Origin: Gammaproteobacteria bacterium
GTDB taxonomy: Bacteria; Pseudomonadota; Gammaproteobacteria; Steroidobacterales; Steroidobacteraceae
Assembly (NCBI GenBank): GCA_016874055.1
Contig: VGVG01000006.1
Span: forward strand, 1-64,000
Reading direction: 5' to 3'
DNA: 64,000 nucleotides
Shown here in pieces: positions 1 to 16,925 of the stretch. Within the stretch, counting starts at the first letter, position 1; the number at the start of each line of letters is the position of its first letter. The notes beneath the pieces were generated by a model. It saw nothing but the letters and a program-made list of their open reading frames with translations, was not told the origin of the DNA and made no database searches. Both the position numbers and the translations under genes were made by a program.

Positions 1-138
1 ATGCATTACGACTTTAGGTTCTTCGACCACGAGAGCGCTCACTTCGAGTGCGCCCCGAACCCCTTCGATGCTAAGGTGTTACCGATGTCTCCGGAATAAT
101 CCGTTACCCATGTGGTCGGAATAGACACAAGAAAAAAA
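1..138. other. Unassigned stretch before tRNA-Thr
   Basis: No gene is supported here. The plus strand can be read as a 32-residue open stretch from base 1 to a TAA at 97-99, but it matches nothing I recognise and may only be the tail of something outside the window. The wording of the stretch around 80-125 reminds me of insertion-sequence ends, from memory only and without any alignment. Confidence 0.3.
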
Positions 139-214
139 TGGTGCCGGAAATAGGATTCGAACCTACGACCTACGCATTACGAATGCGCCGCTCTACCAAC
201 TGAGCTATTCCGGC
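139..214 (-). tRNA. tRNA-Thr (anticodon CGT)
   Basis: Read on the minus strand, the 76 bases fold as a full cloverleaf. The acceptor arm starts GCCGGAA and pairs with TTCCGGC near the 3' end. The D-arm has AGCTCAGTTGGTAGAGC, the anticodon loop is TTCGTAA (anticodon CGT) between GCGCA-type stem halves, and the T-arm contains GGTTCGAATCC. The CCA is encoded. It lies downstream of ispH on the same strand, separated by about 230 bases. Confidence 0.95.
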
Positions 215-445
215 GTCCAAACCCGGGCTCGGCCGAGGCCGGGAATCTTAAACGCACTGCAGGCCGATGAAAAGTTCGACCCTGACGTACTCCAGTTCGT
301 TTGAGGACGGTGGCCAACGACCTCCGACGCGGTTGTCCCTCAGACCACGGCACAGAAGTCCCACAGAGCGACCGCCTCAGGCGCTTTGCGTGGCCCTACC
401 CCACCCCAAACGCGGGGAGGCCGCGCACGGGAGGAGGAAGTAGTG
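215..445. other. Intergenic, ispH to tRNA-Thr
   Basis: There is no credible gene between the ispH stop and tRNA-Thr. A GC-rich imperfect inverted repeat (CCCGGGCTCGGCC with GGCCGAGGCCGGG) lies at about 223-243 and has no clear T-tract, so I do not call it a terminator. Confidence 0.4.
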
Positions 446-1420
446 TCAGTGATTGGTGAAACGCCCTCTACGCACGGACGGCACGGGCACGCGCAACTCG
501 CGCGGCAACCCGAATACCATGCGCTCCTCACGCCCGACCAACTCACGCGGCGCCGTGGCACCCCACTGCCGCAGTCGATCGATGACATCGCGCACCAGAA
601 TCTCGGGCGCCGATGCTCCCGCAGAGAGTCCCACGCACCGCCTGCCATCAAACCATTCGCGACGTAAGTCGTCCGCGCCGTCAACGAGGAATGCCGGTGT
701 GCCAACTCGCTGACCGAGCTCAACGAGACGATTGGAGTTAGAACTTGCGACCGAGCCAACTACGACAAGTACGTCGCACTTGCGCAGTAAATCTTTGACA
801 GCGTCCTGCCGGTTCTGTGTGGCATAGCAGATATCTTCTTTATGTGGACTCGCAAGTTGTGGAAAGCGCTTTCGCAAGGTGTGAATAATCTCGGCGGTAT
901 CGTCAACAGAGAGAGTAGTCTGCGTCACAAAAGCGAGATTGAAAGGATTATCCGCCTTAAGTTTAGTGGCATCTTCCACCGATTCGACAAGATGGATCTT
1001 GCCTCCGAAGGAAGTATCGAAACGACCGAGCGTCCCCTCCACCTCAGGATGACCATTGTGACCGATCAGAATGACCTCTCGCGCCTCGCACGAATATCGA
1101 CGTACCTCCATATGGACTTTGGTGACGAGCGGACAGGTGGCATCAAACACAGTAAGCGCGCGTCGCGCCGCCTCGTCCTCGACCGCCTTCGATACACCGT
1201 GAGCAGAAAAAATGACCGTGGCCTTTTCGGGTACCTCGTACAGTTCGTCGACGAATACCGCCCCCATCGAGCGCAGGCGCTCGACAACGTGCCGGTTATG
1301 AACCAGTTCGTGTCGAACATAAATGGGTGCGCCGAAGAGCGCGATTGCCCGCTCGACGACATCGATGGCACGTTCGACACCGGCACAAAACCCACGCGGG
1401 TTGGCGAGTAGGATGTTCAT
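446..1420 (-). CDS. ispH: 4-hydroxy-3-methylbut-2-enyl diphosphate reductase IspH
   Basis: This is the last enzyme of the MEP isoprenoid pathway, reducing HMBPP to IPP and DMAPP with a [4Fe-4S] cluster in the cytosol. The 324-residue product has the three cluster cysteines where expected: C12 in PRGFCAG, C96 in DATCPLV and C198 in [11 protein letters not shown]. The substrate-binding His41 (RHELVHN), His124 in [10 protein letters not shown] and Thr167 in VTQTT are also present. I chose the ATG at 1420, which gives the family N-terminus [10 protein letters not shown]. It overlaps the lspA stop as ATGA, so the gene is translationally coupled as the last member of murJ-ribF-ileS-lspA-ispH. The FKBP-type gene that sits between lspA and ispH in enterobacteria is absent. 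Confidence 0.97.
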
Positions 1421-1941
1421 CGGCTGCGACTCCAATCAGTAAAAGCATCGCAGAGGAGAAAAACAGCGCCGACGGTGATAGCCGCATCAGCAATATTAAA
1501 CGCCGGGAAATACACCGGTCCCCAATGTACGTGGATAAAGTCGATGACGAAGCCGTGCTCGAAGCGATCGATGACATTTCCAATCGCCCCAGAGAGCACC
1601 AACGCGAGCGCAACTGCTAGCACACGCTCCCCGCGCGCGTGTAACGTCCGCAACCAGAGAACGAGCACCGCGCTCACGATGACGGCCAGAATACTGAAGA
1701 AATGGCGCTGCCAGCCGCCGCCGTCCGCCAAGAAACTAAACGCCGCTCCCCGGTTGTGTAAACGCGTGATGTCGAGCCAAAAAAATACCGGCTCGGAGTC
1801 GCCGAGTGCGTAGTGCGTTTCAACCCAGGCCTTACTCATCTGGTCGGCGACGATGAGCAGAAGCGACAGCCACAGCCAGCGCCAACCACTGTCCCGCCAA
1901 CTTACGGCAACCAGAGCCTCGCGCAGGGATAACCCGCTCAT
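1417..1941 (-). CDS. lspA: Lipoprotein signal peptidase II
   Basis: LspA is the inner-membrane aspartyl peptidase that removes signal peptides from diacylglyceryl-modified prolipoproteins. The 174-residue product has the expected four hydrophobic segments and the family motifs: VADQMSK near residues 31-37, [13 protein letters not shown] at 58-70, GNVIDR with catalytic Asp125, and FNIADA with catalytic Asp152. Its ATG overlaps the ileS stop as ATGA and its own stop overlaps the ispH start in the same way, so it sits in the middle of a coupled operon. The window encodes at least one likely client lipoprotein, the beta-propeller at 15834-16925. Confidence 0.97.
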
Positions 1942-4739
1942 GCGTAACGACGCTCCTCACCGGACCCCAAGACATTGACGACGCAGCGGCCACAAAGTTC
2001 AGGGTGTTCGGCCTGCTGACCGACATCGTCGCGACGGTGCCAGCAGCGCACGCACTTGGGCGCGGCGGTCGCCTTCACGCGAACCGTAAACGCAGACACG
2101 TCAGGATCAACGACGACCTGCGCTGCTGACGTAATCAAAAAGAACCGAAGTTCATCACCGAGCGCGCCATAGCGAGCCTGCTCACTCGCCGGTATGACGA
2201 TTTCGACCTCAGCCTCTAGGGGCGAGCCAATCCCGCCCGCCTCACGCAAGCGCTCGAGTTCGCGCGCGACCTCGCTGCGCAAAGCAAGCAAGGCATTCCA
2301 GTCGATGGTGTCTGTCGGTACTTCGGGCAGTGCGTACCAAACTGAGTGGAACACCGAGGCCTCGCGTCGAGCAGGCAGCTGCGACCAGATTTCTTCGGCA
2401 GTAAACGCCAATACTGGTGCGAGCCAACGCACCATAGCTTCGACGATATGAAACATCGCCGTCTGCGCAGAGCGTCGCGCATGGCTTTTTGTAGGTGTCG
2501 TGTAGAGGCGATCTTTGAGGATATCGAGATAACAACCACCGAGCTCAACGACGCAGAACCCGTGCACTCTCTGATAAACGAGATGGAACTGGTAGTCACG
2601 ATAAGCAGTGGCAATCTCCTCTTGCAGCGCCTTGGTTCGATTGAGCGCCCAGCGATCGAGAGCGATCATATCTTTGACTGGGACCGAATCGGTCGTAAAG
2701 TCGAAGCCGGTGAGATTGCCGAGCAGAAAGCGCACCGTATTACGAATACGACGATAACTGTCGGACGTGCGCTTGAGGATTTCATCGGATACGCCCATTT
2801 CGTTTGCGTAGTCGGTCGAGGCGACCCACAGACGAAGCACGTCAGCTCCGAGGCTCTGCATCACCTTTTGCGGAGCAATGACATTACCGAGGGACTTTGA
2901 CATCTTGCGACCCTTATCGTCCACCGTGAAGCCGTGGGTCAGCACGCCCTTGTAAGGCGCACGACGATGCAAGGCCTCCGACATCAATAGCGAAGAGTGG
3001 AACCAGCCGCGATGCTGATCCGACCCTTCGAGATAAAGATCAACAGGGCCTTCGATTTCGGGGCGCTGCGCAGCTACGCACTCGAACGACAGCCCCGAAT
3101 CCATCCAAACGTCCATGACATCGGTGACTTTGTCGTACTGCGCCGCCTCGGCACCGAGAAGTTCCGCCGCGTCGAGCGCAAACCACGCCTCGATGCCGCC
3201 CCGCTTCACCTTCGCTGCCGCAAGCTCTATGAGCGCGACAGTATTGGGATGCAAGTCACCCTTACTCTTGTGCACGAAGAGTGGAATGGGTACGCCCCAG
3301 ATGCGCTGTCGTGAGATGCACCAATCGGGACGGTTTTCGATCATACCTGTGATGCGCTGCTCGCCCCACGCAGGAGTCCAGGTCACTTTTCTGATGTCCT
3401 CGAGGCCGCCTGAGCGCAGCCTGCGTTGATCCATGCTGATGAACCACTGCGGCGTCGCACGGAAAATCACTGGCGTCTTATGGCGCCAGCAGTGCGGATA
3501 ACTGTGGCGGTACAGCACGTGCTTCACAAGCGCTCCGCTCTCGCGCATGAGACTGATCAGGGTCTCACCAGCTTCGTTCAGCTTAAGCCCTGCGACGAGA
3601 GGTGTACCCTCGACAAACCGACCGTCACCGCCTACGGGGTTGCTGACCGGGAGCCCATATTTTTGACCGATAGCGAAGTCTTCCTGACCATGCGCCGGGG
3701 CCGTATGCACGGCACCCGTGCCCGCATCGAGAGTGACGTGATCACCCACAATCACCGGCACTTCGTAATTAAGAAACGGATGCTTCAACATCAAGCCCTC
3801 GAGCGCCACACCTTTGAAGTACGCTACCTGCTTAACGCTCTCTACTTCGATGTCATATCGACCGGCGATGATCTCGAGCAGATCGCTGGCAAGGACGACA
3901 AGACGCGAGAGGAACTCCCCCTGCGCGGGTATATGTACAAGGGCGTAGTCAATTTCTGAGCCGACTGCGACAGCCTCGTTCGCAGGCAGCGTCCACGGAG
4001 TCGTGGTCCAGATGACGATCGCAGGCTGAAGACCCTTAGCCATTTTCTCGCCTGGGCGCATACCAATACGTGCGCGAAGGTCATCGACGTCCACCACCTT
4101 AAAGGCGACGTCGATCGCCGGAGACGTTGTGTCTTCATATTCGACTTCCGCTTCGGCGAGCGCTGAGCGACAGTCCAGACACCAGTGTACCGGTTTCACA
4201 CCTTTGTACAGGTGGCCGGCCTTTACGATGCGACCAAAGGCCCGCATCTGCTCGGCTTCATAGGCCGGATCCATGGTGCGGTAAGGATGATCCCAATCAC
4301 CGAGCACGCCGAGTCGCTTGAAATCGGAACGCTGTAGTTCGATTTGTTCAGCTGCGAATGCACGACACGCTGCGCGGAACGCGTTGACATCAAGTTTCTG
4401 ACCCGGTCGTCCGTATTTCTTTTCGACGGCGAGCTCGATAGGGAGCCCATGGCAGTCCCAGCCGGGGATGTACGGCGCGTCGAACCCGTCGAGCGTACGC
4501 GACTTTACGATGATGTCCTTCAATATCTTGTTGAGCGCGTGACCGATGTGGATACTGCCGTTTGCGTAGGGCGGGCCATCGTGCAACACAAAGCGTGGAC
4601 GACCCTTCGCGATGCGACGCAGTTCGCCATAGGTGTTGTTCGCTTGCCAGTGCTCGACGAAGGCGGGTTCGCGCATGGCGAGATCGGCCTTCATCGGAAA
4701 GTCAGTCTGCGGCAGATTGATTGTCTGCTTATAGTCCAT
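1938..4739 (-). CDS. ileS: Isoleucyl-tRNA synthetase
   Basis: This class I synthetase charges tRNA-Ile and edits misactivated valine. The 933-residue product has the HIGH signature in [15 protein letters not shown] (about residues 56-70), the KMSKS motif in [14 protein letters not shown], and the C-terminal zinc site with paired cysteines (CVRCWHRR and CGRCVVN). That C-terminal zinc site is typical of bacterial, E. coli-type IleS. The ATG at 4739 is preferred. A GTG directly before it (4740-4742) overlaps the ribF TAG by one base, so coupling to ribF holds with either start. Confidence 0.97.
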
Positions 4740-4741
4740 CA

Positions 4742-5686
4742 CTACTTTTTCACCAACTCACGCGCCGTTCGCGAATCCGCCTGCATCTGAACCACCATCA
4801 AGTCGACATTCTCAAATCGCAACTCGTCGCGCAGGTGGGCAACAAACTCGATCTCGAGCTCGCGACCATAAAGGTCGCCTGAAAAATCGAACACAAACGT
4901 CTCAAGTAAAGGCTCGAGTCCGCCGACCGTAGGACGCGTGCCGAGACTCGCTACGCCGCCGAGGGGCGACCGCTCGATACCGTGCACCCGAACGGCAAAG
5001 ACTCCGCTTAGGGGGAGTCGACGCCGACGGACGCGAATGTTAGCCGTCGGGAAGCCGAGCGTGCGGCCAAGTTGCTGACCAACCACCACCCGACCTCGCA
5101 TCGTGTACGGCCGCCCGAGCAGATACGCCGCCCGGGGCAGATCGCGCTCGGACAAGGCAGCGCGCAATTCCGAACTGCTGACACGATCGATGCCGAGCCG
5201 CACGGACTCGATGACCTCCACCCAAAATTTACCTCCCTCGCTCGAGGCTTGCAGGAAGGCGGCATCGGCCTCGCCATCCCGACCAAATCGGAAATCGTGG
5301 CCAACGATAATACCCGCGACACCGAGATCTTTGACGAGCAGCTGTAGGAAGGCTGTGCCCGACAGCCGCCGCAACGCCTCGTTGAACCGCATCAAGACGA
5401 AGGCATCTAGCCCCGACCGCTCGAGGAGCCGCCAGCGCTCGCGGAAATTGGTAAGACGCGCGGGCGCCGTGTCGGGGGACAAATACTCGCGTGGCATCGG
5501 CTCGAAGCTCACGATGACGGCCGGTCGACCTTCAGCACGCGCTCGTTCGAGCGTACGTGAGATCAGAGTTTGATGACCACGATGCACTCCATCGAAACTA
5601 CCGAGAGTGACAATACCACCGTACAGAGCTTTGGGCACCCCACGCGTGCCGCGCAGCAGCCGCAGAAACGATCGTGCCGATATCAT
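4742..5686 (-). CDS. ribF: Bifunctional riboflavin kinase / FAD synthetase
   Basis: RibF converts riboflavin to FMN and then FAD. The 314-residue product begins with the nucleotidyltransferase domain ([17 protein letters not shown], with the class I HxGH-like signature). It ends with the riboflavin kinase domain, visible as [20 protein letters not shown] followed by GVFAVRVHG and later [19 protein letters not shown]. The open frame runs about 50 codons further upstream, into murJ. I chose the ATG at 5686 because it forms an ATGA overlap with the murJ stop and gives the usual family length. Confidence 0.95.
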
Positions 5687-7239
5687 GCGCTTCGCAGGTG
5701 CGCAGGGCGCAGCCCGAGCAGCACGAGCGTGAGGACATAGGTCACCCCGCCTGCGAGGATACAGCCCGACAAGAGTATCGCGCGATCGATCGGTGAGGCG
5801 TCGAGCCAATAGCTGAGCGCTGGGCTCACCAACCAAAGCGTAACCGCCATCAAAAAATTAGCGATTAGCACGCGCAGTCCGAGCGATCCCCAGCCGGCAG
5901 ACGGGTGGTAGACGCCCTCGCGTCGCAGTCCGCGCCAGAGCATGAAACTATTGAGTGCCGCCGAAAGACAGGTTGAGGTGGCAAGAAGCACGAAGGGCGT
6001 GGCAAAGCCTCCAAAATGTGCGGGCAGAACCACGACGAGGTTGAAAGCCATATTGACAGCGAGCGCGATGAGCCCGACGCGAACTGGCGTTTTGGTGTCC
6101 TGCCTGGCGAAGTATCCCGGCGCGAGTAACTTGACGAGACTAAAACCGATGAGGCCCCAAGAGTATGCCATGAGGCCGTATTGGGTCATCATCACATCCC
6201 GATGGGAGAATTGACCGTAGCCGAAGATAGTGGCGGTTATGGGGCCGGCGAGCACGAGCAGCCCCACCGTCGCCGGTGTAACGACCAAGAGCACGAGGCG
6301 AAACGACCAATCGAGCGTCGCCGAGAAGCGCGCGGCATCGCCCGCCGCATGCTGCGCAGAAAGCCGCGGTAAAATCACGGTCGCAAGCGCGATACTGAAT
6401 ACGCCGAGCGCGAACTCCATCAAGCGATCGGCGTAGTAAAGCCAAGCGATGCTACCCGTCATTAGAAACGACGCGATGAGCGTATCGAGCAACAGACTCA
6501 CCTGTGCCATGGACGAGCCGAAGATTCCCGGGATCATCAGCTTGCCGATTCGGCGTACGCCCTCGGCTGTCGGCCGCCAACGCGGCATCGATAACAAACC
6601 AAGTCGCGCCACCGACGGCAACTGGAACACCACTTGTGCGACGCCCGCGAAGAACACGCCGATGGCTAGGGTCACTCCGGGGTTAGCCGAGTTCGCGGCA
6701 ATCACCACGGCGAACAGAATCATCACGAGATTCATTACGACCTGCGTGAACGCTGGTACGGCGAATCGATCGTAACTGTTGAGCACACCACTAAAAAGAG
6801 CCGTCAAAGAAACGAAGAAGAGATACGGGAACGTCCAGCGCAGCATGTCGACAGCAAGCTCATACTTTCCCGCTTCCTGAGTAAAGCCGGGGGCGAAGAG
6901 CAGAATAACGACTGGGGCAGCGATGACCCCGATCGCAGTCACGATGAGTAGCACGCAACCTAGGGTACCGGTCACGCCCGCCACCAGCTCCCGCACGTCG
7001 TCCTTCTGACGGAGAACTTTGTACTCGGAGATTACGGGTACGAAGGACTGTGAAAAGGCCCCTTCAGCGAATAGTCGGCGCAGGAAGTTCGGGATCTTGA
7101 AAGCGACCAGGAACGCGTCCACCAGCGTGCCGGCGCCAAAGGTCTGAGAATAGACCATATCACGCATCAGCCCAGTGACCCGGGACAGCAAAGTGGTTAG
7201 ACCCGCCACTGAGGTGCTCTTGAAGATCGCGCGACTCAT
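5683..7239 (-). CDS. murJ: Lipid II flippase MurJ
   Basis: MurJ moves lipid II across the inner membrane for peptidoglycan synthesis. The 518-residue product is almost wholly hydrophobic with about fourteen segments. It starts with the family hallmarks (a TTLLSRVTGLMRDM segment, then FLVAFKIPNFLRRLFAEGAFSQSFVPV). It is the first gene of the coupled minus-strand operon leading into ribF. Its start faces rpsT across about 115 bases, so that gap must hold promoters for both directions. Confidence 0.96.
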   Translation of the reverse strand: MSRAIFKSTSVAGLTTLLSRVTGLMRDMVYSQTFGAGTLVDAFLVAFKIPNFLRRLFAEGAFSQSFVPVISEYKVLRQKDDVRELVAGVTGTLGCVLLIVTAIGVIAAPVVILLFAPGFTQEAGKYELAVDMLRWTFPYLFFVSLTALFSGVLNSYDRFAVPAFTQVVMNLVMILFAVVIAANSANPGVTLAIGVFFAGVAQVVFQLPSVARLGLLSMPRWRPTAEGVRRIGKLMIPGIFGSSMAQVSLLLDTLIASFLMTGSIAWLYYADRLMEFALGVFSIALATVILPRLSAQHAAGDAARFSATLDWSFRLVLLVVTPATVGLLVLAGPITATIFGYGQFSHRDVMMTQYGLMAYSWGLIGFSLVKLLAPGYFARQDTKTPVRVGLIALAVNMAFNLVVVLPAHFGGFATPFVLLATSTCLSAALNSFMLWRGLRREGVYHPSAGWGSLGLRVLIANFLMAVTLWLVSPALSYWLDASPIDRAILLSGCILAGGVTYVLTLVLLGLRPAHLRSA

Positions 7240-7355
7240 GACTGCCGTGTGGGACCCCGCCTTCGAACTATACCGGAGCTGCTATTTTTAAACGTTGACA
7301 ACTCCACGTCACAAACAGAAAATGTCGGACCCTTCAACGTCGCTAAACACTATTC

Positions 7356-7625
7356 GTGGCCAATACTAAGTCCGCCGAAAAAGCAGCTCGTCAGGCCGTC
7401 AAACATCGCGCCCGCAATGTTGCGCTGCGCTCTCGTTCCCGCTCCGCGATTCGCGAAGCGACCGAGACCATCGCCAAGGGCGACAAAACGGCCGCTCCGG
7501 CTGCCGTGCGCCGAGCAGGTTCTCTGGTCGACTCGATGGTTAACAGGGGCCTCGTGCACCGTAACAAGGCTTCACGCCACAAGAAGCGTTTGGCTGCGAA
7601 ACTCAAAAGTCTTGCTGGCAAGTAG
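7356..7625 (+). CDS. rpsT: 30S ribosomal protein S20
   Basis: S20 is a primary 16S rRNA-binding protein. The 89-residue, lysine/arginine-rich product starts MANTKSAEKAARQ and ends [12 protein letters not shown], the classic S20 pattern. The start is GTG at 7356; no in-frame ATG gives this N-terminus. It is divergent from murJ, the conserved gammaproteobacterial arrangement. Its last 23 bases overlap the end of the convergent TfoX-C-like gene, and I see no clear hairpin terminator of its own. Confidence 0.96.
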   Translation: MANTKSAEKAARQAVKHRARNVALRSRSRSAIREATETIAKGDKTAAPAAVRRAGSLVDSMVNRGLVHRNKASRHKKRLAAKLKSLAGK

Positions 7626-8163
7626 CACTCTCGCGAGCCCCCTTTCTACAAAATCGGCCTACAGGTGGTTTTTTCTTCTTTCGTGCCCTTACCGTCCGCT
7701 CTCTGCGACCCGCCTCGAAAGGGAGCCCCGGCACCCATGGAGTCTCCATCGCCGAAATAGACGCACGGGCCGCGCTCTTTTCCGGTCGCTTCGCATCACC
7801 CTTCTCTAAAACACCCCTAGCCTCAAGTGTGCTGCGTCGTGCTGCAAGGCGGGCTTCGACAGCGAGCAGCAGCGGTAATCGAGACTCGCCTGTGGCGACT
7901 TTCCGCCAGTCCCGCCCCTCCGGCCACGGTTCTAGGGCCCCGACGAGCGCCCAAAGCAAATTTAGCGTGCGGGTCAGTCCCGCGTGGCGCACCGAGAGAT
8001 AGGCTTCAAGCGCGCCACGTCGACGCAAGGTCTCAACGTCGTCGATGCCGATAATCGAGAGTAGACGCTGCGATTGAGGCCCGAGGTTGCGCAAGTCGCA
8101 CAGGCGCAACCGCAGTTTGCCCTGCGCCAGCCGGCGACGAACCTTCGGATTACGATCGGGCAT
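7603..8163 (-). CDS. TfoX C-terminal-domain protein
   Basis: The 186-residue product carries a TfoX_C-like helix-hairpin-helix module at about residues 22-85 ([20 protein letters not shown], then [17 protein letters not shown] and [12 protein letters not shown]). Stand-alone TfoX_C proteins are common in proteobacteria and their role is mostly unknown; full TfoX regulates competence. The TfoX N-terminal domain is missing. The C-terminal 90 residues are basic, low in recognisable structure (RARKKKKPP near the end), and overlap the rpsT stop on the other strand. The ATG at 8163 overlaps the obgE stop by 14 bases. The real C-terminus could be a read-through of an ancestral stop. Confidence 0.75.
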
Positions 8164-9175
8164 CTTTCGTCGATTCGAGGAACCGCATGACCGCCTCGGT
8201 GAGTTCGCGTGTGCCGGTGCCAGTGATGCCTGAGATTAAAAACCACGGATCTTTGAAGCGCAGCGAGCGCACGATGGTTTTCGCTTTTTGCTCTGCTTCG
8301 CCGGACGGCAACAAATCGCTCTTATTAATGACGAGCCAACGCGGCTTCGTCGCCAGATCTTTAGAGAATTTTTTGATCTCGGCAACGATCGATCGCGCAT
8401 CTTTGACGGGATCGGCATCCGGATTGTAAGGCGCGATCTCGACGAGATGCAGCAGCACTCGCGTGCGCTGTAAATGTCTTAAAAAGCGAATGCCGAGTCC
8501 CGCACCCTCGGCTGCACCCTCGATGACACCGGGAATGTCGGCCATCACGAAGCTTCGATGCTCGCCGCAATAGACGACACCCAGATTAGGGTACAGCGTC
8601 GTAAAGGGATAGTCGGCAACCCTCGGACGTGCCGACGACACGGCACGGATAAACGTCGATTTGCCCGCGTTCGGCAAGCCGAGTAATCCCACATCTGCGA
8701 TAACTTTAAGCTCGAGCTCAAGAATACGCTTCTCGCCGCGTAGACCGGTACCGAATTGCCGCGGCGCGCGATTGGTACTGGTCTTGAATCGGGCATTACC
8801 CCAACCGCCCTTGCCACCATTCGCGACGAGTAAGGTATCGCCCTCGTATAAAAGATCGCCGAGTTGCTCACCGGTTTCTGAATTGAGAATCACCGTGCCT
8901 ATTGGCACCGGCACATACAAATCATCACCGCTGCGACCGAAGCAGTCGTTGCCGCTGCCACTCTCACCTGATTTCGCCTTGAAAATTCGCTCGACACGGA
9001 AATCGGCCAAGGTATTGATGCCGGGCGCAGCCCGCAAATAGACGCTGCCGCCATGACCGCCGTCGCCACCATCTGGTCCGCCGAAAGGCACAAACTTCTC
9101 GCGACGGAAGCTTAGGCAACCCCGTCCTCCGTCGCCGGCCTGCACCCGGATTTTGGCCTCATCGACGAACTTCAT
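8150..9175 (-). CDS. obgE: Obg family GTPase (ribosome assembly)
   Basis: ObgE is an essential GTPase of 50S maturation and stress control. The 341-residue product has the glycine-rich Obg fold ([20 protein letters not shown]), then the G domain with G1 at about 166-173 (GLPNAGKS), G3 as DIPGVIEGA and G4 as NKSD. The ATG at 9175 (MKFVDEAKI) is the family start; the open frame continues upstream only into non-conserved sequence. It follows rplU-rpmA on the same strand, but a strong hairpin with a T-rich tail lies between rpmA and obgE, so it may be attenuated or have its own promoter. Confidence 0.96.
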
Positions 9176-9198
9176 GAACACGTCCTCTGCAAAAACCA

Positions 9199-9227
9199 CA
9201 AACAAAAACCCCGGCACGCAGCCGGGG
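9199..9227 (-). terminator. Rho-independent terminator after rpmA
   Basis: On the minus strand CCCCGGC-type arms (9209-9215 and 9221-9227) close a 5-base loop and are followed by TTTTTGTTT. It lies between rpmA and obgE and would end or attenuate the rplU-rpmA transcript. Confidence 0.8.
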
Positions 9228-9253
9228 CACTGAATGCGGGAGGTATGTCGCCG

Positions 9254-9511
9254 TCAGTCGGCAACCACGCTCACGTACATCTTATTCTCGGCGCCCCGGC
9301 GCTTGAAGGCGATCTTGCCGTTGGTCAGGGCGAACAGCGTGTGGTCCGTGCCCATGCCAACATTGGTTCCGGCGCGGTATTGGGTGCCACGCTGACGGAT
9401 AATGATGTTACCGGCGAGCACCTGCTCACCGCCGAACGCCTTTACGCCGAGTCGCTTACTGTGAGAGTCGCGGCCATTTCTGGTGCTGCCGCCCGCTTTT
9501 TTATGTGCCAT
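9254..9511 (-). CDS. rpmA: 50S ribosomal protein L27
   Basis: L27 is a small protein of the peptidyl-transferase region of the 50S subunit. The 85-residue product starts [16 protein letters not shown], the typical proteobacterial N-terminus without the cleaved Firmicutes-type extension, and contains [18 protein letters not shown] chose the ATG at 9511; five more codons are open upstream but are not conserved. It follows rplU by about 15 bases in the usual rplU-rpmA operon. Confidence 0.96.
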
Positions 9512-9526
9512 GTGTCCGCTCCGCAA

Positions 9527-9841
9527 TCAGCCGACGTTGATACCGTTAACCTTTATTTCAGTGAATTGTTGCCGATGGTTTTTCATACGCAGGTAATGCT
9601 TGCGGCGCCGGAATTTGATCACGCTTACCTTATCTCTCTGACCGTGACACTGCACTGTCGCTGAAACCGAGGCTCCTGACAGCCTGGGAGAGCCAACTTT
9701 AACCGAATCGCCGGAACCAACGAGAAGGACTTCACCGAAACTCACCTCACAACCAGGCTCCAAGGGAAGCTTTTCGATGCGGAGTACACTACCTTCCTCG
9801 ACCCGATATTGCTTTCCACCCGTGGCAATAACCGCGTACAT
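9527..9841 (-). CDS. rplU: 50S ribosomal protein L21
   Basis: L21 binds 23S rRNA in the large subunit. The 104-residue product starts MYAVIATGGKQYRVEEG and ends with the conserved RRKHYLRMKNHRQQFTEIKV segment. It is the first gene of rplU-rpmA and divergent from ispB, with about 130 bases between the starts. The same arrangement is found in many Gammaproteobacteria, so the shared gap probably holds both promoters. Confidence 0.96.
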   Translation of the reverse strand: MYAVIATGGKQYRVEEGSVLRIEKLPLEPGCEVSFGEVLLVGSGDSVKVGSPRLSGASVSATVQCHGQRDKVSVIKFRRRKHYLRMKNHRQQFTEIKVNGINVG

Positions 9842-9974
9842 TTGAATAGCTCCGGAAAAGGCTGCGGAGTTTACTGAGCGACCGTCAAACGGTCAAACCC
9901 CTCCGTCAGAGACGATTCCTCAATGGATCAAGGACTTACCCTTTTGGTGTCCAAGTCGGCTACCATCATCCTCG

Positions 9975-10952
9975 GTGAATACGCTGCTGGCCTCGGTCAA
10001 GGAGCTGGTTCGTCAGGATCTCCAAGCCGTCGATGCTGTGATCCGCGCCAGCATGAAAAGCTCAGTCGCCCTGGTCGATCAGGTTACTGAACACATCTTT
10101 TCAAGCGGTGGAAAGCGGCTTCGCCCACTTATCGTACTGCTCGCCGCCCGTTCGGGTAACTATCGTGGTACGAGCCATATTGACGTCGCGGCATTCATAG
10201 AGTTCATCCACACCGCGACCCTCCTGCACGACGATGTCGTCGATGGCTCATCGCGCCGCCGCGGACGCTTCACGGCGAACCACTTATATGGCAATCAAGC
10301 GAGCGTCCTCGTCGGCGACTTCGTTTACTCGCGAGCGTTTCAGATCATGGCGGCAATCGGCTCGCAGCGCGTGATGGAAATCATGTCGCAAGCTACTAAC
10401 GTCATCGCCGAAGGCGAAGTACTGCAACTCATGAATGCAGGCGATCCCGACACGACGCAGCAGCGTTATTTAGAGGTGATCTACCGCAAGACCGCAAAAC
10501 TTTTTGAAGCAGGAGCGGAAGTATCTGCGGTGATCGCTGGAGCGAGCCCGAGTCAACAACGTGCATTGGCCGACTTTGGCCGACATCTCGGTACTGCGTA
10601 CCAGCTGATCGACGACGTGCTCGATTACCAATCAAACCCCGATGAGCTTGGCAAAAATTTAGGTGCCGATTTGGCTGAAGGTAAGCCTACCCTCCCCCTA
10701 ATCCAGGCCCTACAAAAAGCCTCGGATCCGAACATCCGGTCGATCATCCGCGGTGCCATCGAGAATGGCGGCGTCGAGCAACTTGATGCCATCGTGGGCG
10801 CAATTGAATCGACCGGCGCTATTGAGTACACTCGCGCTATCGCTCAGGACGAGGCCGATCAGGCACTTGCAGCCATTCAAGCGCTGCCAGAGTCGCCGTT
10901 CAAAAAAGGTCTCGCCGCGCTCGCGCGTTTCGCCGTCGAGCGCACTTCCTGA
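9975..10952 (+). CDS. ispB: Long-chain polyprenyl (octaprenyl) diphosphate synthase
   Basis: IspB makes the side chain of ubiquinone. The 325-residue product has the trans-prenyltransferase motifs: GGKRLRP at 46-51, the first Asp-rich motif DDVVD at 86-90 followed by RRRG, and the second Asp-rich motif DDVLD at 213-217. The chain length, eight or more isoprene units, cannot be read from the sequence. The start is GTG at 9975; a later ATG would remove the conserved N-terminal helix. It uses IPP, which the IspH encoded at the left end helps to supply. Confidence 0.93.
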   Translation: MNTLLASVKELVRQDLQAVDAVIRASMKSSVALVDQVTEHIFSSGGKRLRPLIVLLAARSGNYRGTSHIDVAAFIEFIHTATLLHDDVVDGSSRRRGRFTANHLYGNQASVLVGDFVYSRAFQIMAAIGSQRVMEIMSQATNVIAEGEVLQLMNAGDPDTTQQRYLEVIYRKTAKLFEAGAEVSAVIAGASPSQQRALADFGRHLGTAYQLIDDVLDYQSNPDELGKNLGADLAEGKPTLPLIQALQKASDPNIRSIIRGAIENGGVEQLDAIVGAIESTGAIEYTRAIAQDEADQALAAIQALPESPFKKGLAALARFAVERTS

Positions 10953-10979
10953 CATCGGCCCCCGCGGGTCCGCCAGCAT

Positions 10980-11056
10980 CGGGATGTAGCTCAGCCTGGT
11001 AGAGCACTACGTTCGGGACGTAGGAGTCGGAGGTTCAAATCCTCTCATCCCGACCA
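10980..11056 (+). tRNA. tRNA-Pro (anticodon CGG)
   Basis: The 77 bases fold as a cloverleaf. The acceptor arm is CGGGATG with CATCCCG, the D-arm contains AGCTCAGCCTGGTAGAGC, the anticodon loop is TTCGGGA between CTACG and CGTAG, and the T-arm contains GGTTCAAATCC. The CCA is encoded. A truncated integrase lies about 800 bases downstream, which makes this tRNA the likely integration site of the accessory region that follows. Confidence 0.95.
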
Positions 11057-11101
11057 TCTCCCGCCAAAGAAAACAATCAGTTAGCCTGATGTCGGGATTG
11101 T

Positions 11102-11133
11102 CCGAGTAGAATACTCGGGACTATTCTACTTTT
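11102..11133 (+). terminator. Possible terminator of tRNA-Pro
   Basis: Two overlapping hairpins can form: CCGAGTA/TACTCGG (11102-11118) and GTAGAAT/ATTCTAC (11106-11129), the latter followed by TTTT. The position just after tRNA-Pro suits a terminator, but the U-tract is short. Confidence 0.4.
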
Positions 11134-11213
11134 CAGTGACTTTGATATGCGCGTAGGCGTCACTCTCTGAGACAAAGTTCAGGATTCACAGGTCACCGAA
11201 AGAATAAAACTCT

Positions 11214-11753
11214 ATGGACATCACCACAGCCCAACTTGAACTGCGCAACTCTTATTTACGGGGCGGTCCAGGAACGATCATCTCGGGTATCGTTTGGCTC
11301 TTCGCTGGAGTCGCAGCGAACAATACGGACATTCCGACAGCATTTGCGGTTTTATTCTTTGGTGGAATGTTGATTTCCCCACTTTCAACGCTGCTCAGGC
11401 GCAGTGTTTTCCGTCGCAGTCCGCCGCAGAAAGGCAACCAAGGCGGCTTGACCGTCATAGAGACGACCTTTCCTATGATCGGCGGTCTTATCGCGGCATG
11501 GCTGATGCTGCCTTTCAGACCAGATTTTGTGTTCCCGCTGGCGGCAATCGCAGTCGGAACCCATTACTTCGGATTTCGGACTGCTTATGGCGACTGGACG
11601 TACTGGATCCTCGGTGGCGCGTTAGTCGTTGTTGGTTCTACGTCTATCTTCGTCGGAGTGCCCAGCGCCAATATCGCACCCCTCTTGGTCGCAGCAGTAG
11701 AAGTGATTTTCGGTATCTGGCTAACCCGACAAAGCGTTATCCGTGACCAGTGA
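11214..11753 (+). CDS. DUF7010-like membrane protein
   Basis: The 179-residue product has about five or six hydrophobic segments separated by short loops. The general pattern (an early SGIVWLFAGV segment, a central LLRRSVFRR turn, a late WTYWILGGALVVVG) resembles the uncharacterised DUF7010 membrane family; I make this comparison from memory. No catalytic motif is visible. It is the first gene after tRNA-Pro and on the same strand as the degraded integrase, so it is probably cargo of the decayed island. Function unknown. Confidence 0.6.
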   Translation: MDITTAQLELRNSYLRGGPGTIISGIVWLFAGVAANNTDIPTAFAVLFFGGMLISPLSTLLRRSVFRRSPPQKGNQGGLTVIETTFPMIGGLIAAWLMLPFRPDFVFPLAAIAVGTHYFGFRTAYGDWTYWILGGALVVVGSTSIFVGVPSANIAPLLVAAVEVIFGIWLTRQSVIRDQ

Positions 11754-11797
11754 AACCTAAAGTCGCCAAAGTACTCCCATTACAATGCTGACCGTGA

Positions 11798-12170
11798 TTT
11801 CTTCTCTGCGAGAGAACTCTGGACGGACAATCATCAACTGATTGCTCAACTCGTCATCGCTCTTGCCCCTTCAAGAGCAGCATCACCAGCATACCTGGCT
11901 ACCCTCGCAAACAGATCATCTTCAAGATCGCAGCGTCTTCCTTCTATTGGACGCGCTACTTTTATCAAGGTAAGGTCTATAAGCGTTCAACGCGAACAGC
12001 AAGCAAACGCGATGCGATTGAGTTCGCAAAGCCCTTCTACGACAACATCAACTACAAGCAACACGCAAGTCTTTTGCGTGGGAAAAAGCAGAACTTCGTC
12101 GCCTGTGTTCATGATGTATTGAAGCAGCAGCACTATGCTGTGCTGGCAGGCGAACTGTCAGCAGAGAACT
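11798..12170 (+). pseudogene. Truncated tyrosine integrase (N-terminal fragment)
   Basis: From about 11864 the plus strand encodes a piece typical of the arm-binding N-terminus of phage-type integrases: PGYPRKQIIFKIAASSFYWT, followed by RYFYQGKVYKRSTRTASKRD and AIEFAKPFYDNI. The frame is open from 11798 but has no convincing start codon. The similarity stops at about 12165-12170, where the DNA becomes the 3' end of an opposite-strand membrane gene. The core-binding and catalytic domains (the R-H-R-Y residues) are missing, so it cannot recombine. Its position downstream of tRNA-Pro(CGG) is the classic sign of tRNA-targeted integration followed by deletion. Confidence 0.7.
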
Positions 12171-12691
12171 ATCCGCCTATCCGCCGCGTACACGAAGGCT
12201 GCTGCCGCCACAGCGACCGCTACGGCCACGACGCCGAGCAAGGCGGCGTAGGTCCAACCCATTGTTCGCATGGTGCGAAACATCTCAATCGGATTGGCGG
12301 CGGCAAGAATCCTGCCGGACGCCCAAAGAATCGCGGTGGAGGTGGGGAGCAGCATGGTGGCGATCACGACGATCGCGATGGCCAGCGGGCCCTCGATCCA
12401 CAGCACGAGCGCCACGACGCTGAGAATGATGGCGAGTTGGAACAGGGGACGCTGCTCGACCGGGTTCACCATCTCCACGGACAGCACCGGCGGTTCGTCG
12501 ATACCGTTGGCCACGTACTCGAGCAGCACGTAGGCGTATTTGAGTGTCCATGAGAAGGCAATCAGAAACAAAGGCAGGCCGAGCAGCCCCGCCGCACCCG
12601 CAATCGCAAACAGCAAAGTGAACACAGCGACCAGCAGCAGCGTGGTCGGGTGAAATGGCCGCAGTATGTGGCGCAACAGTAGCGGCATCAC
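12158..12691 (-). pseudogene. Membrane protein, probably 3'-truncated at integrase junction
   Basis: The 177-residue reading starts MMPLLLRHILRPFHPTTLLL and has five or six hydrophobic segments. I do not recognise the family with certainty. Its last four residues and stop codon come from DNA that on the other strand still encodes the integrase fragment. The original 3' end has therefore been lost at a junction near 12165-12175, and the present stop is accidental. It may still be transcribed. It shares strand and GC-rich character with the DUF4386 and M48 genes beside it, and the three probably arrived together. Confidence 0.5.
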
Positions 12692-12750
12692 CGTCTAGGT
12701 TTCACCGATGCAGCGATGCAGCCAAGTCGCGCCGATGGCGCGCTGGCTGG

Positions 12751-13473
12751 TCATGCCGCCACACGCTGCTGCCACTTCGGCAGATTGACGCCCTTGATGA
12801 GTAGCCAAATGGCAAGACTCAACTCGCCGACGAACGCTGGGATCAGTATCGCCGGAAACAGGGTTCGGGCGACATCCGGCGCAAGAATCAATGCAAAGCT
12901 GTTGATGAGATAGCTCGCACCTGCGAATTGCAGCAGAACGCCCAGAGTGGCGGGCAGGTAGGACGACTTGTAGATCAGGTAGCCGCGAATCAGGCAGGTG
13001 AAACCGAAGAAAATCAATCCGATGCCGAATCCATGGCTGTGCAGCTGGTTGGCCAGATACGACAGTTGTTGCTACTGCTCCGCCGCGAGGCTGCCTGCCT
13101 GGCCGGCGTTGCCCATGACCGCCACCGGCGCGTCAGCAGTGCCAGCTTGTTGAGCGCTAGGACCGCCGTCTGGATCAGATTGAACGCGGTCGACATCAGC
13201 GCGAGGCTCCTGCTGATGGGTCGTAACAGCAGGTAGAAAATGATGATCGTCAGAATGTCCGCGACCTGCATGAGCAGGTCGCCTGCGATGCCCGCTCGCC
13301 ACAGCAATTCATTGGCCGCGATGTTGTTGGCCGTCGCCGCGGGATCGCCGCCCCGCGACCAGTACTCCGCGCATGATCAACTCGCCGAACATGCCGAGCG
13401 CGATGATTGCGAGATAGATCAACCCGCAGGCACGGGCATAGGTTTGAGGCGAGCGCTCAAAGGATGAGTTCAT
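12751..13473 (-). pseudogene. DUF4386 membrane protein, broken by two frameshifts and a stop
   Basis: Three reading frames together spell a DUF4386-type membrane protein. The N-terminus MNSSFERSPQTYARACGLIY starts at 13473. A frameshift at about 13350-13360 moves to the frame with NELLWRAGIAGDLLMQVADI. A second one near 13118 moves to PVAVMGNAGQAGSLAAEQ, which meets an in-frame TAG at 13072-13074 and then continues QQLSYLANQLHSHGFGIGLI and IFFGFTCLIRGYLIYKS to 12751. The pieces join without gap or overlap, so this is one gene with at least three lesions. A single sequencing error cannot explain it. Confidence 0.8.
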
Positions 13474-13771
13474 GTCGTGCGTGATCCCGCATTGAGTTCG
13501 GCGCCAGGCGCCGATGGGATGGATTCGACCCTGATCGAATCCGGCGAGCAATAGAGGCGACATCGACGACGACGCCGGAAGCAGAAGGTCCCACGTCGAT
13601 CCCGTGCAACGCACGTGCTCCAAGTCATGCGCACGCGCAATGCGTCGCCTGGCCGAGTCAATGGGACGACCCGGCTTCCGCGCACTGTGCGCGCCATGGC
13701 CGTTCGAAGCAACGAACAAGCCTATCGAGTGACCACGCTGCCGTCGACGACGCCCGGATCCAGCTCGAACA
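13474..13771. other. No recognisable gene
   Basis: About 300 GC-rich bases between the M48 gene and the DUF4386 pseudogene. Several frames are open, as expected at this GC content, but none gives a recognisable protein. Given the decay on both sides, this may be an unrecognisable remnant. Confidence 0.4.
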
Positions 13772-14932
13772 TTACCGTCGGAGTCCGCTGGCTTTCCAAT
13801 CCATCGCCCGGCGTACGCGTCGCTCGACCGACGGGTGCGTATAGAACAGCACTTCCTGCAGCCAGCTCGGGCGTGGATTGCGGTACTCGGCCGTCTTGAC
13901 CAGCGCCGTCGCGAGGGCATCGGGCAGGTTCACGGTCTCGAGTGAGTACTGGTCGGCCTCGTTCTCGCCGTGGCGGATCGAGGCGTTGACCAGCGGCTGC
14001 GTCAGCAGGAAGAACAGTGACATCAGGAACGCCAGCACCGGCAGGCCGGTCGGCTCGTCGATGCGCGCCGCGCTGCCGAACGCCCGCGCGACCCGGGGGA
14101 ACAGCCGGTCGGCCAGGAAGAAGAACACCATCGCGAGCGCCGACATCAGGAACACCATGCGCCAGACGTGACCGAGTACGTAGTGACCGATCTCATGGCC
14201 AGTGACGGCCTTGACCTCGTCCAGCGATGCGCCCTTGAATGCGACGTCCGAGATCGCAATGCGCGCGGACCCGGCGATGCCAGACACGTTGGCCGTGAAG
14301 TTGTTCGATTGCCGTGAGCCGTCGTAGACGAAAATCCGCTCGGCCGGCACGCCGGCCTGTCCGGCCAACGTCACGAGCGCGTCGCGAACCTCGCCGGCGG
14401 GAACTGGCCGATAGTCGTTGAAGAGAGGCTCGAAGACGACCGGTCCGGCAAGCAGGAAGGACGACAGTGCCACCGCGGTCAGGCCGCCCGCCCAGGCCCA
14501 CCAGTACTTGCCCGCGCGCCGCATCAGGGCGTAAACGCCGACGAAGAAGAGGCCGACGAGTACCGCGAAGATCGCGGTCGACAGACCAGCCTGACCGAGA
14601 AAGTCCGCGAGCGGCTGGCTGGTGCGGCCGTAACTGCGTTCGCGCCAGAACTCCTCGTACAGGGCCCAGGGCAGCGAGATCAAACTGGCCAGCACAAAAT
14701 AGGCCGCAGCAACGACCCACGCGCGGAGATTCAGCCCGCGTCGCGCCAGTTTCGCGTTGAGGCGATCCAGCACGCCCGTGCGCACGAACAGCCAGGCCAC
14801 GACGGCCGACACCAGCAGGTTCCAGAGCAGCAGCCAGTGATTGCCGGCGGTGTAAGCAGCGGCCTGGGCCAGTGCGTCGGCGCCGAGCGAGTCGATGTAA
14901 GCGGCGGTAGCCGCGGCGGGGTCGAATGCCAC
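13772..14932 (-). CDS. M48 family zinc metallopeptidase (Ste24-like)
   Basis: The 386-residue product resembles Ste24/CAAX-prenyl-protease-1-type M48 proteases, integral membrane zinc peptidases. Several hydrophobic segments come first. The zinc site is HEIGH (His246, Glu247, His250), and the third ligand is in ENEAD (Glu323). Two more hydrophobic segments separate these motifs. All catalytic residues are present, so unlike its neighbours the gene appears intact. Its substrate in this bacterium is unknown, since farnesylated CAAX proteins are not expected. It sits at the upstream end of the decayed minus-strand group. Confidence 0.9.
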   Translation of the reverse strand: MAFDPAAATAAYIDSLGADALAQAAAYTAGNHWLLLWNLLVSAVVAWLFVRTGVLDRLNAKLARRGLNLRAWVVAAAYFVLASLISLPWALYEEFWRERSYGRTSQPLADFLGQAGLSTAIFAVLVGLFFVGVYALMRRAGKYWWAWAGGLTAVALSSFLLAGPVVFEPLFNDYRPVPAGEVRDALVTLAGQAGVPAERIFVYDGSRQSNNFTANVSGIAGSARIAISDVAFKGASLDEVKAVTGHEIGHYVLGHVWRMVFLMSALAMVFFFLADRLFPRVARAFGSAARIDEPTGLPVLAFLMSLFFLLTQPLVNASIRHGENEADQYSLETVNLPDALATALVKTAEYRNPRPSWLQEVLFYTHPSVERRVRRAMDWKASGLRR

Positions 14933-14940
14933 GCGCCAGT

Positions 14941-15070
14941 CTACCAGCTGTCCTTCGCTTGCAGCAATTCAGTCACTTCCAGCCAGCGGGTTTCCGCCTT
15001 ACGAACCAGGGGGTCGGGACTTCGACGAGGCGCGCGAAGCCCGCGAGCCATCTCTCCGGGCGCGCCAGAA
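14941..15070 (-). pseudogene. Possible C-terminal remnant of an ABC-F ATPase
   Basis: Directly upstream of the M48 start the minus strand reads LVRKAETRWLEVTELLQAKD followed by SW and a stop at 14941-14943. This recalls the charged coiled-coil tail of ABC-F proteins (Uup/YheS type), but the piece is short and no ATP-binding motif lies upstream. I treat it as a weak remnant call. Confidence 0.25.
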
Positions 15071-15220
15071 TCATCGAAGGCTTACGCAGTGCGTGAGCCT
15101 TTCAATTTTTTCCAGCGTAGGGAAATCGTAGAGTTGTTTTCTACGAACGCCCACATCCGTTCAATTCGACCAGCTGCCTGCGAGATGATCGGGTGCCAAG
15201 TGCGCATAGGGAAGCACCAT
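15071..15220. other. No gene seen
   Basis: A short AT-richer stretch separating the GC-rich M48 group from the small membrane protein. It may contain the edge of the inserted segment. Nothing else is visible. Confidence 0.35.
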
Positions 15221-15454
15221 CTAGCCAATGTCGCTCCAGCTCCAGCCAGATGACTTGAGGATCCTATCTAAGATGGCGATCTGGGCCATGTACCAGAACG
15301 TGATCAGCAGCCAGAAGGCTGTGAAGAAATCGAGGCCGGTCCAAGAGAAAGCGCCTCGATCTAGAAGCAGCAAGGAGATCAGCGTCGAGACAATCGGGAA
15401 TCCGCTAAGGACTGCGATGATCTTTGACGCAGGCATCGCGCTTTGTTGATTCAT
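15221..15454 (-). CDS. Small two-helix membrane protein
   Basis: The 77-residue product starts MNQQSAMPASKIIAVLSGFP and has two hydrophobic helices (about residues 11-27 and 33-55), then a short polar tail ending WSWSDIG. I do not recognise a family. The ATG at 15454 places the first helix near the N-terminus; an upstream extension of 33 codons is open but looks non-coding. It is isolated, with the inverted-repeat structure at 15560-15640 upstream of its start, so that structure could lie in its 5' leader. Confidence 0.5.
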   Translation of the reverse strand: MNQQSAMPASKIIAVLSGFPIVSTLISLLLLDRGAFSWTGLDFFTAFWLLITFWYMAQIAILDRILKSSGWSWSDIG

Positions 15455-15559
15455 AAAGTGTCCGTCCTTCGAGGAAATCGGTGGCCGCCTAACGCGATGG
15501 TGTGCCAACCACCCCCCATTTCCCAATCCCTCTCCGACACTCGGATTCCCCACGGTGTC

Positions 15560-15640
15560 TGTAGTAAATCGTGTACTACATCGACTTCATTCCACCAACG
15601 TCAGAGGGGGGACGAATTCTCGTCCCCCCTCATGTAGTAC
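15560..15640. repeat. Nested and competing inverted repeats
   Basis: A perfect 12-bp stem, GAGGGGGGACGA with TCGTCCCCCCTC around the loop ATTC, occupies 15604-15631. It is enclosed by a perfect 9-bp inverted repeat, GTACTACAT (15573-15581) and ATGTAGTAC (15632-15640), the right arm touching the inner stem. The left arm can instead pair with TGTAGTA at 15560-15566 across a 7-base loop, so two folds compete. There is no U-tract, which argues against a simple terminator. Confidence 0.75.
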
Positions 15641-15833
15641 GAATGTAGGACGATGACCCCTACCGAAACCACGCTCGTATGCGCAACGGATGGGCGCTAC
15701 CGCAATGCCGGCCCCGGCAAACGTATCGCGAGGTCGACGCGGATCGAGCTCGAGGTAAAAACCTAGGATGCACGGCAGCTCGGCGACATAACCTCACGCG
15801 TGATCCACCATGGACTGCATCAGGGCGACACCG
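15641..15833. other. No gene seen
   Basis: About 190 bases between the inverted-repeat structure and the end of the beta-propeller lipoprotein gene. No recognisable coding or RNA signal. Confidence 0.4.
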
Positions 15834-16925
15834 TCAGCGCCAAGCGATGCGATCACCAGCAAAGGTGCCGAGATACAGCCGACCCTTGAATGGCAGCGCA
15901 ACCGTCGCCGCGCCGATGGGCGGCCCTTGCTGATCGAGTATGACGCGCGAGTATAAGGATTCGGGGTCGACCTCAACAATCTGAAATCGGAAGCCGCAAT
16001 TCCCGCGCTCGATACCGAGGCACTTGATGAGATCGAAGGTGCTGGCATGGTGCGAGGCGACGAGAAGACGCCCATCCTCGGACCAAGTGACGTTGTCTGG
16101 TCCCATCACCCGGACCTCGCCGACACGTTGACCGGTCATCGTGTCAACTTTGATTAGGGCGTTTTCAAAGTAGCCATTTAGGTAGAGATAACGCCCATCT
16201 GGCGAGGACTCGATGCCGTTGGCATAGCCCGTGTCACTTCCGATTACGCGCGAGTATCCTTTACCCGGTCGCCACTCCCACGCGAATCCGGGGCGGTGCG
16301 AGCCAAAGCGCATGCGCAGTCCCGAGACGACCATGTTCTCGCCACGCCGAAAGCTGTCCGACACTCGAAAGCCACCATCGCTTAACACGACGACGTCATT
16401 CGTGGTCGCATCGGGTGGTGCAAGTACGCAGCCACGCGCTTTGAGTGCCACCTCAAGACCATCATCGATGATTTCAAAAATTTCGATCGACTCTCGCGTA
16501 CCATGATTGACGACGTACAACATCTGACGCCCATCCTCAAGACGGCGGGCGTTGATGCCGTGCGGGGCGAGTGCAGCAGACCCAAGCGAGGGGCATGTGG
16601 GATCACCGACGAGCTTCGCCTGCTCCAACGCAGCGACGATCGTCCGAGAGCTTGACGCGCGCGGCCATAGCGGACGGATGTCTCCAGCAGCTCCTGCGGC
16701 ACCCGGTACATAAGCAACGAGCCGACCGACGCGTGACTCGACGCCGCCTCGCCCCATTTCACTAATGATCAGCGCAGTGCCACGCGGACTCGCGGCAAAG
16801 TCCTCAGGGTTTTGAAATCGGCAATCCGGGGTAAGTCCGTTACCAGCACGACAATCGAGTATATCGGGTGTCGTACATGCTCCAAGCGAGAGCAGCAGAG
16901 TGGCGAGACACATACGAATCAGCAT
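15834..16925 (-). CDS. Lipoprotein with SMP-30/paraoxonase-like beta-propeller
   Basis: The 363-residue product starts MLIRMCLATLLLSLGACTTP, a clear lipoprotein signal with lipobox LSLGAC. It should be cleaved by LspA and anchored in the membrane facing the periplasm. The rest reads as a propeller of the SMP-30/arylesterase type: APHGINARRL, VVLSDGGFRVSDSF, GYANGIESSPDGRYLYLNGY and GPDNVTWSEDGRLLVASHH are typical blade and metal-site segments. It is probably a calcium-dependent lactonase or esterase; the substrate is unknown. Its start overlaps the end of the upstream VOC gene by seven bases, so the two are one transcript. Confidence 0.8.
   Translation of the reverse strand: MLIRMCLATLLLSLGACTTPDILDCRAGNGLTPDCRFQNPEDFAASPRGTALIISEMGRGGVESRVGRLVAYVPGAAGAAGDIRPLWPRASSSRTIVAALEQAKLVGDPTCPSLGSAALAPHGINARRLEDGRQMLYVVNHGTRESIEIFEIIDDGLEVALKARGCVLAPPDATTNDVVVLSDGGFRVSDSFRRGENMVVSGLRMRFGSHRPGFAWEWRPGKGYSRVIGSDTGYANGIESSPDGRYLYLNGYFENALIKVDTMTGQRVGEVRVMGPDNVTWSEDGRLLVASHHASTFDLIKCLGIERGNCGFRFQIVEVDPESLYSRVILDQQGPPIGAATVALPFKGRLYLGTFAGDRIAWR

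Follow-up and report, generated by a model that had tools for sequence, protein, structure and literature searches.

Hairpins with GTAG-like motifs nearby are encountered in REP sequences and the RAYT system. In the WebGeSTer database, hairpins that lack a U-tract constitute a terminator class designated 'I-shaped', and transcripts with I-shaped hairpins are reported to have shorter half-lives than those with U-tract hairpins (PMC7406221). Moreover, an enrichment of long inverted repeats at human deletion breakpoints has been reported (PMC4319165).

Here, we describe a nested hairpin in a window of 64,000 nucleotides (the whole stretch of DNA that was analysed) from an uncultured member of the Steroidobacteraceae. 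Comparison with related genomes places it beside a putative rearrangement scar, and its possible roles are weighed against the systems mentioned above.

Results

Structure and predicted folding of the hairpin

A preliminary description of this locus had claimed a perfect 12-bp stem at 15604-15631, a flanking perfect 9-bp inverted repeat of which the left arm can also pair with an upstream TGTAGTA, and the absence of a U-tract. All these elements are present in the sequence, and there is no T-run beside the 12-bp stem on either strand. The site comprises the following features:

15560-15580, no strand assigned: alternative pairing, a 7-bp inverted repeat TGTAGTA/TACTACA with a loop of 7 nt (sequence, pair probabilities)
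15573-15581 and 15632-15640, no strand assigned: outer perfect 9-bp inverted repeat GTACTACAT/ATGTAGTAC (sequence; predicted to be hardly used)
15579-15655, no strand assigned: extended imperfect stem enclosing the 12-bp stem (minimum-energy fold of the plus strand)
15604-15631 (arms 15604-15615 and 15620-15631), no strand assigned: perfect 12-bp G/C-rich stem GAGGGGGGACGA/TCGTCCCCCCTC with a loop of 4 nt (sequence, folding)
15632-15653 (15632-15642 and 15643-15653), plus strand: tandem 11-bp repeat ATGTAGTACGA/ATGTAGGACGA, alike at 10 of 11 positions (sequence)

The right arm ATGTAGTAC (15632-15640) directly abuts the 12-bp stem and is the inverted counterpart of the left arm GTACTACAT (15573-15581). 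The upstream TGTAGTA (15560-15566) can pair with 15574-15580, which is part of the left 9-bp arm, and the 9-bp and 7-bp pairings are mutually exclusive because both use these positions.

A 121-nt piece folded more stably than 200 of 200 shuffles on each strand (z of -3.99 and -3.06). The inner 12-bp stem has a predicted probability of 1.0 on either strand (-26.5 to -26.8 kcal/mol), the 7-bp alternative stem reaches 0.661 (plus strand) and 0.979 (minus strand), and the outer 9-bp stem, with 0.023 (plus) and 0.007 (minus), is outcompeted by the longer imperfect stem, the base of which pairs 15579-15583 with 15651-15655 in the plus-strand fold. The earlier proposal of two mutually exclusive pairings thus holds with respect to their exclusivity, whereas a balanced choice between them does not; since the predicted ensemble is one-sided, a switch between the pairings is not supported. 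Two comparable exclusive structures, as in a riboswitch or attenuator, do not emerge from the predicted pair probabilities.

Perfect stems of at least 12 bp with loops of 3-10 nt appeared in 8 of 100 dinucleotide shuffles of the 64-kb window, and with loops of 3-30 nt allowed, 1 of 10 shuffles reached 12 bp. The nested arrangement, defined as an inner stem of at least 10 bp with arms of at least 8 bp within 30 nt, was found in none of the 100 shuffles. Scanning of 626,812 real bases (the window, 20 stretches of the same genome, and contig C3 of genome G009) yielded two such cases, the hairpin described here and L115:12700-12728, a stem that has A/T tracts and resembles a terminator. Among 381,306 bases of its own genome there are 5 perfect stems of at least 12 bp, 3 of which have A/T tracts, and 18 copies of the 7-mer TGTAGTA/TACTACA. 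Four of these copies lie in the window, three of them within the 80 bp of the hairpin, and no second triple within 80 bp is present elsewhere in the 381,306 bases; based on the measured density, about 1e-5 such triples would be expected in 64 kb, a statistic chosen after the fact. The hairpin structure is real and unusual within the sample of its own genome, and it is more than plain chance, with the repeat statistic being post hoc.

Search for relatives of the hairpin

By similarity, the hairpin was found at a single place in its own, incomplete genome (G000), the four other matches being pieces of 17-21 bp (E 0.3-2.1). The DNA search of 24 genus genomes returned, over the hairpin, the stem matching itself and a weak match in G013 (24 bp at 15568-15591, E 0.81). 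In 217 family genomes many matches were obtained, none of those listed lying over 15560-15655 (at most 2 candidates per genome, E limit 0.01), and its own genome alone was matched among 369 class genomes (at most 2 candidates per genome, E limit 1e-4) and among 398 phylum genomes (at most 2 candidates per genome, E limit 0.001). These genus, family, class and phylum sets overlap, and each contains the hairpin's own genome. Plasmids and phages gave no match to the hairpin, neither the exact stem nor the exact tandem repeat occurs in the viral contigs, and Rfam yielded no family reaching the gathering score, the best of the weak matches having E values of 7 and 7.5.

The sequence TGTAGTANNNNNNNTACTACA was encountered in at least 120 stretches of the viral contigs, and 22 of the 80 loci listed have a perfect stem of at least 9 bp within 120 bp or extra copies of the 7-mer; these matches were read as chance, the nearby stem often being the palindrome itself. 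A conserved terminal hairpin in related loci was likewise rejected, as perfect stems of at least 10 bp occur in only 3 of 11 scanned loci (one in L098, one in L094, two in L096), these loci being drawn from 13 fetched ones and including some that are not mobile elements; three of the four stems have A/T tracts. In nine tRNA-Arg-site loci the 7-mer is absent and a stem is present in L248 only, with a T-run, while each of 16 related loci scanned has at most one copy of the 7-mer. The hairpin is apparently unique, with no convincing relative detected in the samples searched.

The right edge of the accessory region

In relatives, the gene order is tRNA-Pro, a variable stretch, a methyltransferase gene, and an SMP-30-like gene. 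The window is collinear with G009 at 137-11136 and then again from 15662. To the right of the hairpin, two features are recognized:

15656-15793, minus strand: methyltransferase stub with the first 46 residues kept and the rest missing (tblastn with proteins of G009, G011 and G010)
15834-16925, minus strand: SMP-30/gluconolactonase-like gene, located upstream of the methyltransferase gene in relatives (Pfam SGL below cut-off; orthologues)

The SMP-30-like gene has close orthologues in G009 (82%), G011 (79%) and G008 (71%), and a methyltransferase gene stands next to it in 4 of 5 fetched loci (L029-L032, not L033). In G011, the methyltransferase carries the Pfam domain MethyTransf_Reg. The corresponding frame of G008 contains two in-frame stop codons (L031:7350-7460), so that decay of this gene may not be confined to a single member of the genus.

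The hairpin is the last item before the methyltransferase stub, and tblastn detected no further convincing piece of methyltransferase in 11001-15800. DNA homology to the methyltransferase region stops at 15662-15663 and protein homology at 15656, so that the break falls within about 15656-15662. The extended stem has its base only 1-7 bp away, the junction position being uncertain by several bases. In G010 (L089), tRNA-Pro is followed by a DUF7010 gene, the methyltransferase gene in one open frame, and SMP-30, and similarity to the window reaches about 11946; based on this order, approximately 11947-15655 takes the place of most of the methyltransferase gene. The junction may be a misassembly, but both flanks are collinear with G009.

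The supposed position beside a decayed accessory region was borne out by the comparison with relatives. The hairpin had also been suggested to mark the right edge of a tRNA-Pro element, and it does delimit, on the right, the segment missing from relatives; a tRNA-Pro attachment site, however, finds no support, as a second core is absent from this edge. The window holds a single full copy of the tRNA-Pro core and none near 15655, so that the edge is read as a scar rather than as a tRNA-Pro attachment site. Among the facts about the hairpin, its place at a rearrangement scar is the best supported.

The presumably foreign segment

The segment to the left of the hairpin is read as foreign, namely as a mosaic of partly broken genes, and includes:

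11947-15655, no strand assigned: segment absent from relatives (left end versus G010, right end versus G009 and G011)
15000-15067, plus strand: 3' part of tRNA-Arg(ACG), with 24 nt inserted at 15026-15049; it resembles the attachment-site core of another element
15115-15222, minus strand: frameshifted remnant of a tyrosine integrase C-terminus (DNA identity to G031; protein match)
15221-15454, minus strand: 77-aa ORF with hydrophobic stretches (no relatives; 3' end possibly degenerate integrase)

A possible integrase-like frame at 11798-12145 has no Pfam match, and its identity as an integrase is a guess. A gene encoding a DUF4386 membrane protein is split over frames at 12751-13307, and between it and the tRNA-Arg part lies an M48 peptidase gene of which the nearest copies in the genus sample, in G019 and G020, are 67-68% alike.

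Positions 15050-15222 share 89.7% DNA identity with G031, where an intact tRNA-Arg gene adjoins a PF00589 integrase and both remnants of the segment find their match; the integrase remnant matches a PF00589 integrase at 83% over 24 aa. From these matches, 15000-15222 is taken as the trace of an integrative element of a different tRNA, inside the tRNA-Pro-associated region. A terminator-like stem with a T-run at 15076-15102 matches a terminator-like stem behind tRNA-Arg in G031. L245:1293-1548 and L248:1501-1753 each contain two neighbouring copies of the tRNA-Arg core; one copy is intact, and the other has a piece similar to the sequence at the junction of the 24-nt insertion (15026-15049).

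The hairpin lies 106-201 nt upstream of the ATG of the 77-aa ORF. Integrase similarity continues weakly past the stop into the 3' end of this ORF (41% over 39 residues, to 15295), so that part of it may be a degenerate integrase. No convincing relative of the ORF was found in 396 order genomes, where besides its own genome four gave matches, over short parts (E 0.004-0.008), and none in plasmids, phages and viral contigs. A similarity of 15270-15310 to G001 and G021 was read as chance, the frame there being one that we take to be NADH dehydrogenase. At the other side of the segment, tRNA-Pro and its 3' flank (10980-11177) share 94% identity with G010 and G015, while G022, G020, G021 and G012 contain an additional copy of pieces from the 3' half of tRNA-Pro.

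Discussion

Tentatively, the most likely reading is that the hairpin, which lacks a U-tract, would serve to end, protect or insulate a transcript. The hairpin would have arrived with, or have formed at the end of, the foreign segment between tRNA-Pro and the SMP-30-like gene. As RNA, it would end, block or protect the minus-strand transcript leaving the SMP-30-like gene and the methyltransferase stub, and the 77-aa ORF and M48 gene behind it would be insulated; prior to the rearrangement, its place was probably at the end of a gene of the mobile segment or in front of one. The strength of the inner stem argues for this reading, as do its intergenic site, 203 nt past the SMP-30 stop on the same strand, the end of homology directly beside it, and the description of U-tract-less hairpins as one terminator class (PMC7406221). 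It is weakened by the stems of at least 12 bp in this genome, which mostly carry A/T tracts and suggest that the usual terminators here look different, by the presence of TGTAGTA copies and of an 11-bp tandem repeat, neither of which a terminator needs, and by the shorter half-lives of I-shaped transcripts reported in that same source.

The repeats would be accommodated by a site acting as DNA, in which a protein encoded by the mobile segment would bind the TGTAG(T/G)A copies as half-sites, with the palindrome belonging to the putative site; this is possible, if doubtful. The protein could be a regulator of the 77-aa ORF, a recombinase, or a replication protein. Three exact 7-mers in 80 bp versus one elsewhere in 64 kb, a tandem repeat of approximately one helical turn, the location upstream of the 77-aa ORF, and the integrase and attachment-site remnants nearby are consistent with such a site. 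They are set against the lack of a second triple in the own-genome bases, the scarcity of the 7-mer in the 16 related loci and its absence from the nine others, the lack of a second copy by similarity in its own genome and of a known partner gene, and the lack of a sigma-70-like promoter match. A compact operator, TACTACA-N0-30-TGTAGTA, has no occurrence in its own genome; this pattern does not even fit the hairpin site itself and carries little weight.

Rather unlikely is a now functionless by-product of the rearrangement, with the palindrome formed by template switching at the junction or having attracted the break. The proximity of the extended stem to the point where methyltransferase homology stops would fit, and human deletion breakpoints offer a parallel (PMC4319165); arms that are perfect beside broken genes are as expected for a recent origin, and the family, class and phylum samples are free of relatives. 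Nevertheless, this is a single case with neither an ancestral nor an intermediate sequence, at a junction uncertain by several bases.

The preliminary description had considered a regulatory leader with competing stems, which could serve the 77-aa ORF by switching between the 9-bp and 7-bp pairings. Despite the positions shared by these pairings and a plausible ribosome site of the ORF downstream, it found no support: the predicted ensemble is one-sided, Rfam provides no family, and the ORF itself has no convincing relative, making a leader improbable. Slightly less probable again is the terminal repeat of a transposon, REP/MITE or integron-type element, to which its location right at the border of the foreign segment would point. 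REP/RAYT and MITE elements, expected in several copies, were rejected with the hairpin at one place only in its incomplete genome, and no Y1 transposase was found in this one genome (0/1; 83.65% complete). An integron attC was rejected as well, as the core pair RYYYAAC...GTTRRRY (spacing 30-160) is absent from both strands of 11901-15700, and comparison with the left border gave only weak matches (best E 0.13).

It is very improbable, although of consequence if true, that the hairpin and TGTAGTA repeats form the site by which the end of a mobile element is recognized, the element being of an undescribed kind in which hairpin and half-sites replace terminal inverted repeats. Such an element would have entered the methyltransferase gene and lost its opposite end afterwards; were the repeats a recombinase site, they would represent a new type of element terminus. 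Finally, chance is the least probable origin, since a perfect 12-bp stem does arise in some window shuffles but the nested case in none, and the triple 7-mer is added to it.

By itself, the hairpin matters little. It locates the right-hand limit of the tRNA-Pro-associated accessory region with a precision of a few bases, and this region is shown to be a mosaic including part of a tRNA-Arg element. In the genus, tRNA-Pro looks like an integration hotspot, as we infer, and other tRNA genes may serve as well.

Compared with known systems, the hairpin shares with REP/RAYT the GTAG-like motifs nearby, but it is present in one copy and no Y1 transposase was found in its incomplete genome. Like the attachment sites of tRNA-integrating elements it borders a tRNA-associated accessory region, whereas the edge here has no copy of the tRNA-Pro core. 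With Rho-independent terminators it has the G/C-rich 12-bp stem and 4-nt loop in common, but it has no T-run on either strand, and a terminator pattern scan of 15000-16000 gave two other sites only. The I-shaped terminators of WebGeSTer differ from this candidate terminator in that the latter carries repeated TGTAGTA; what they share with it is a strong predicted stem, the absence of a U-tract, and an intergenic position downstream of a gene.
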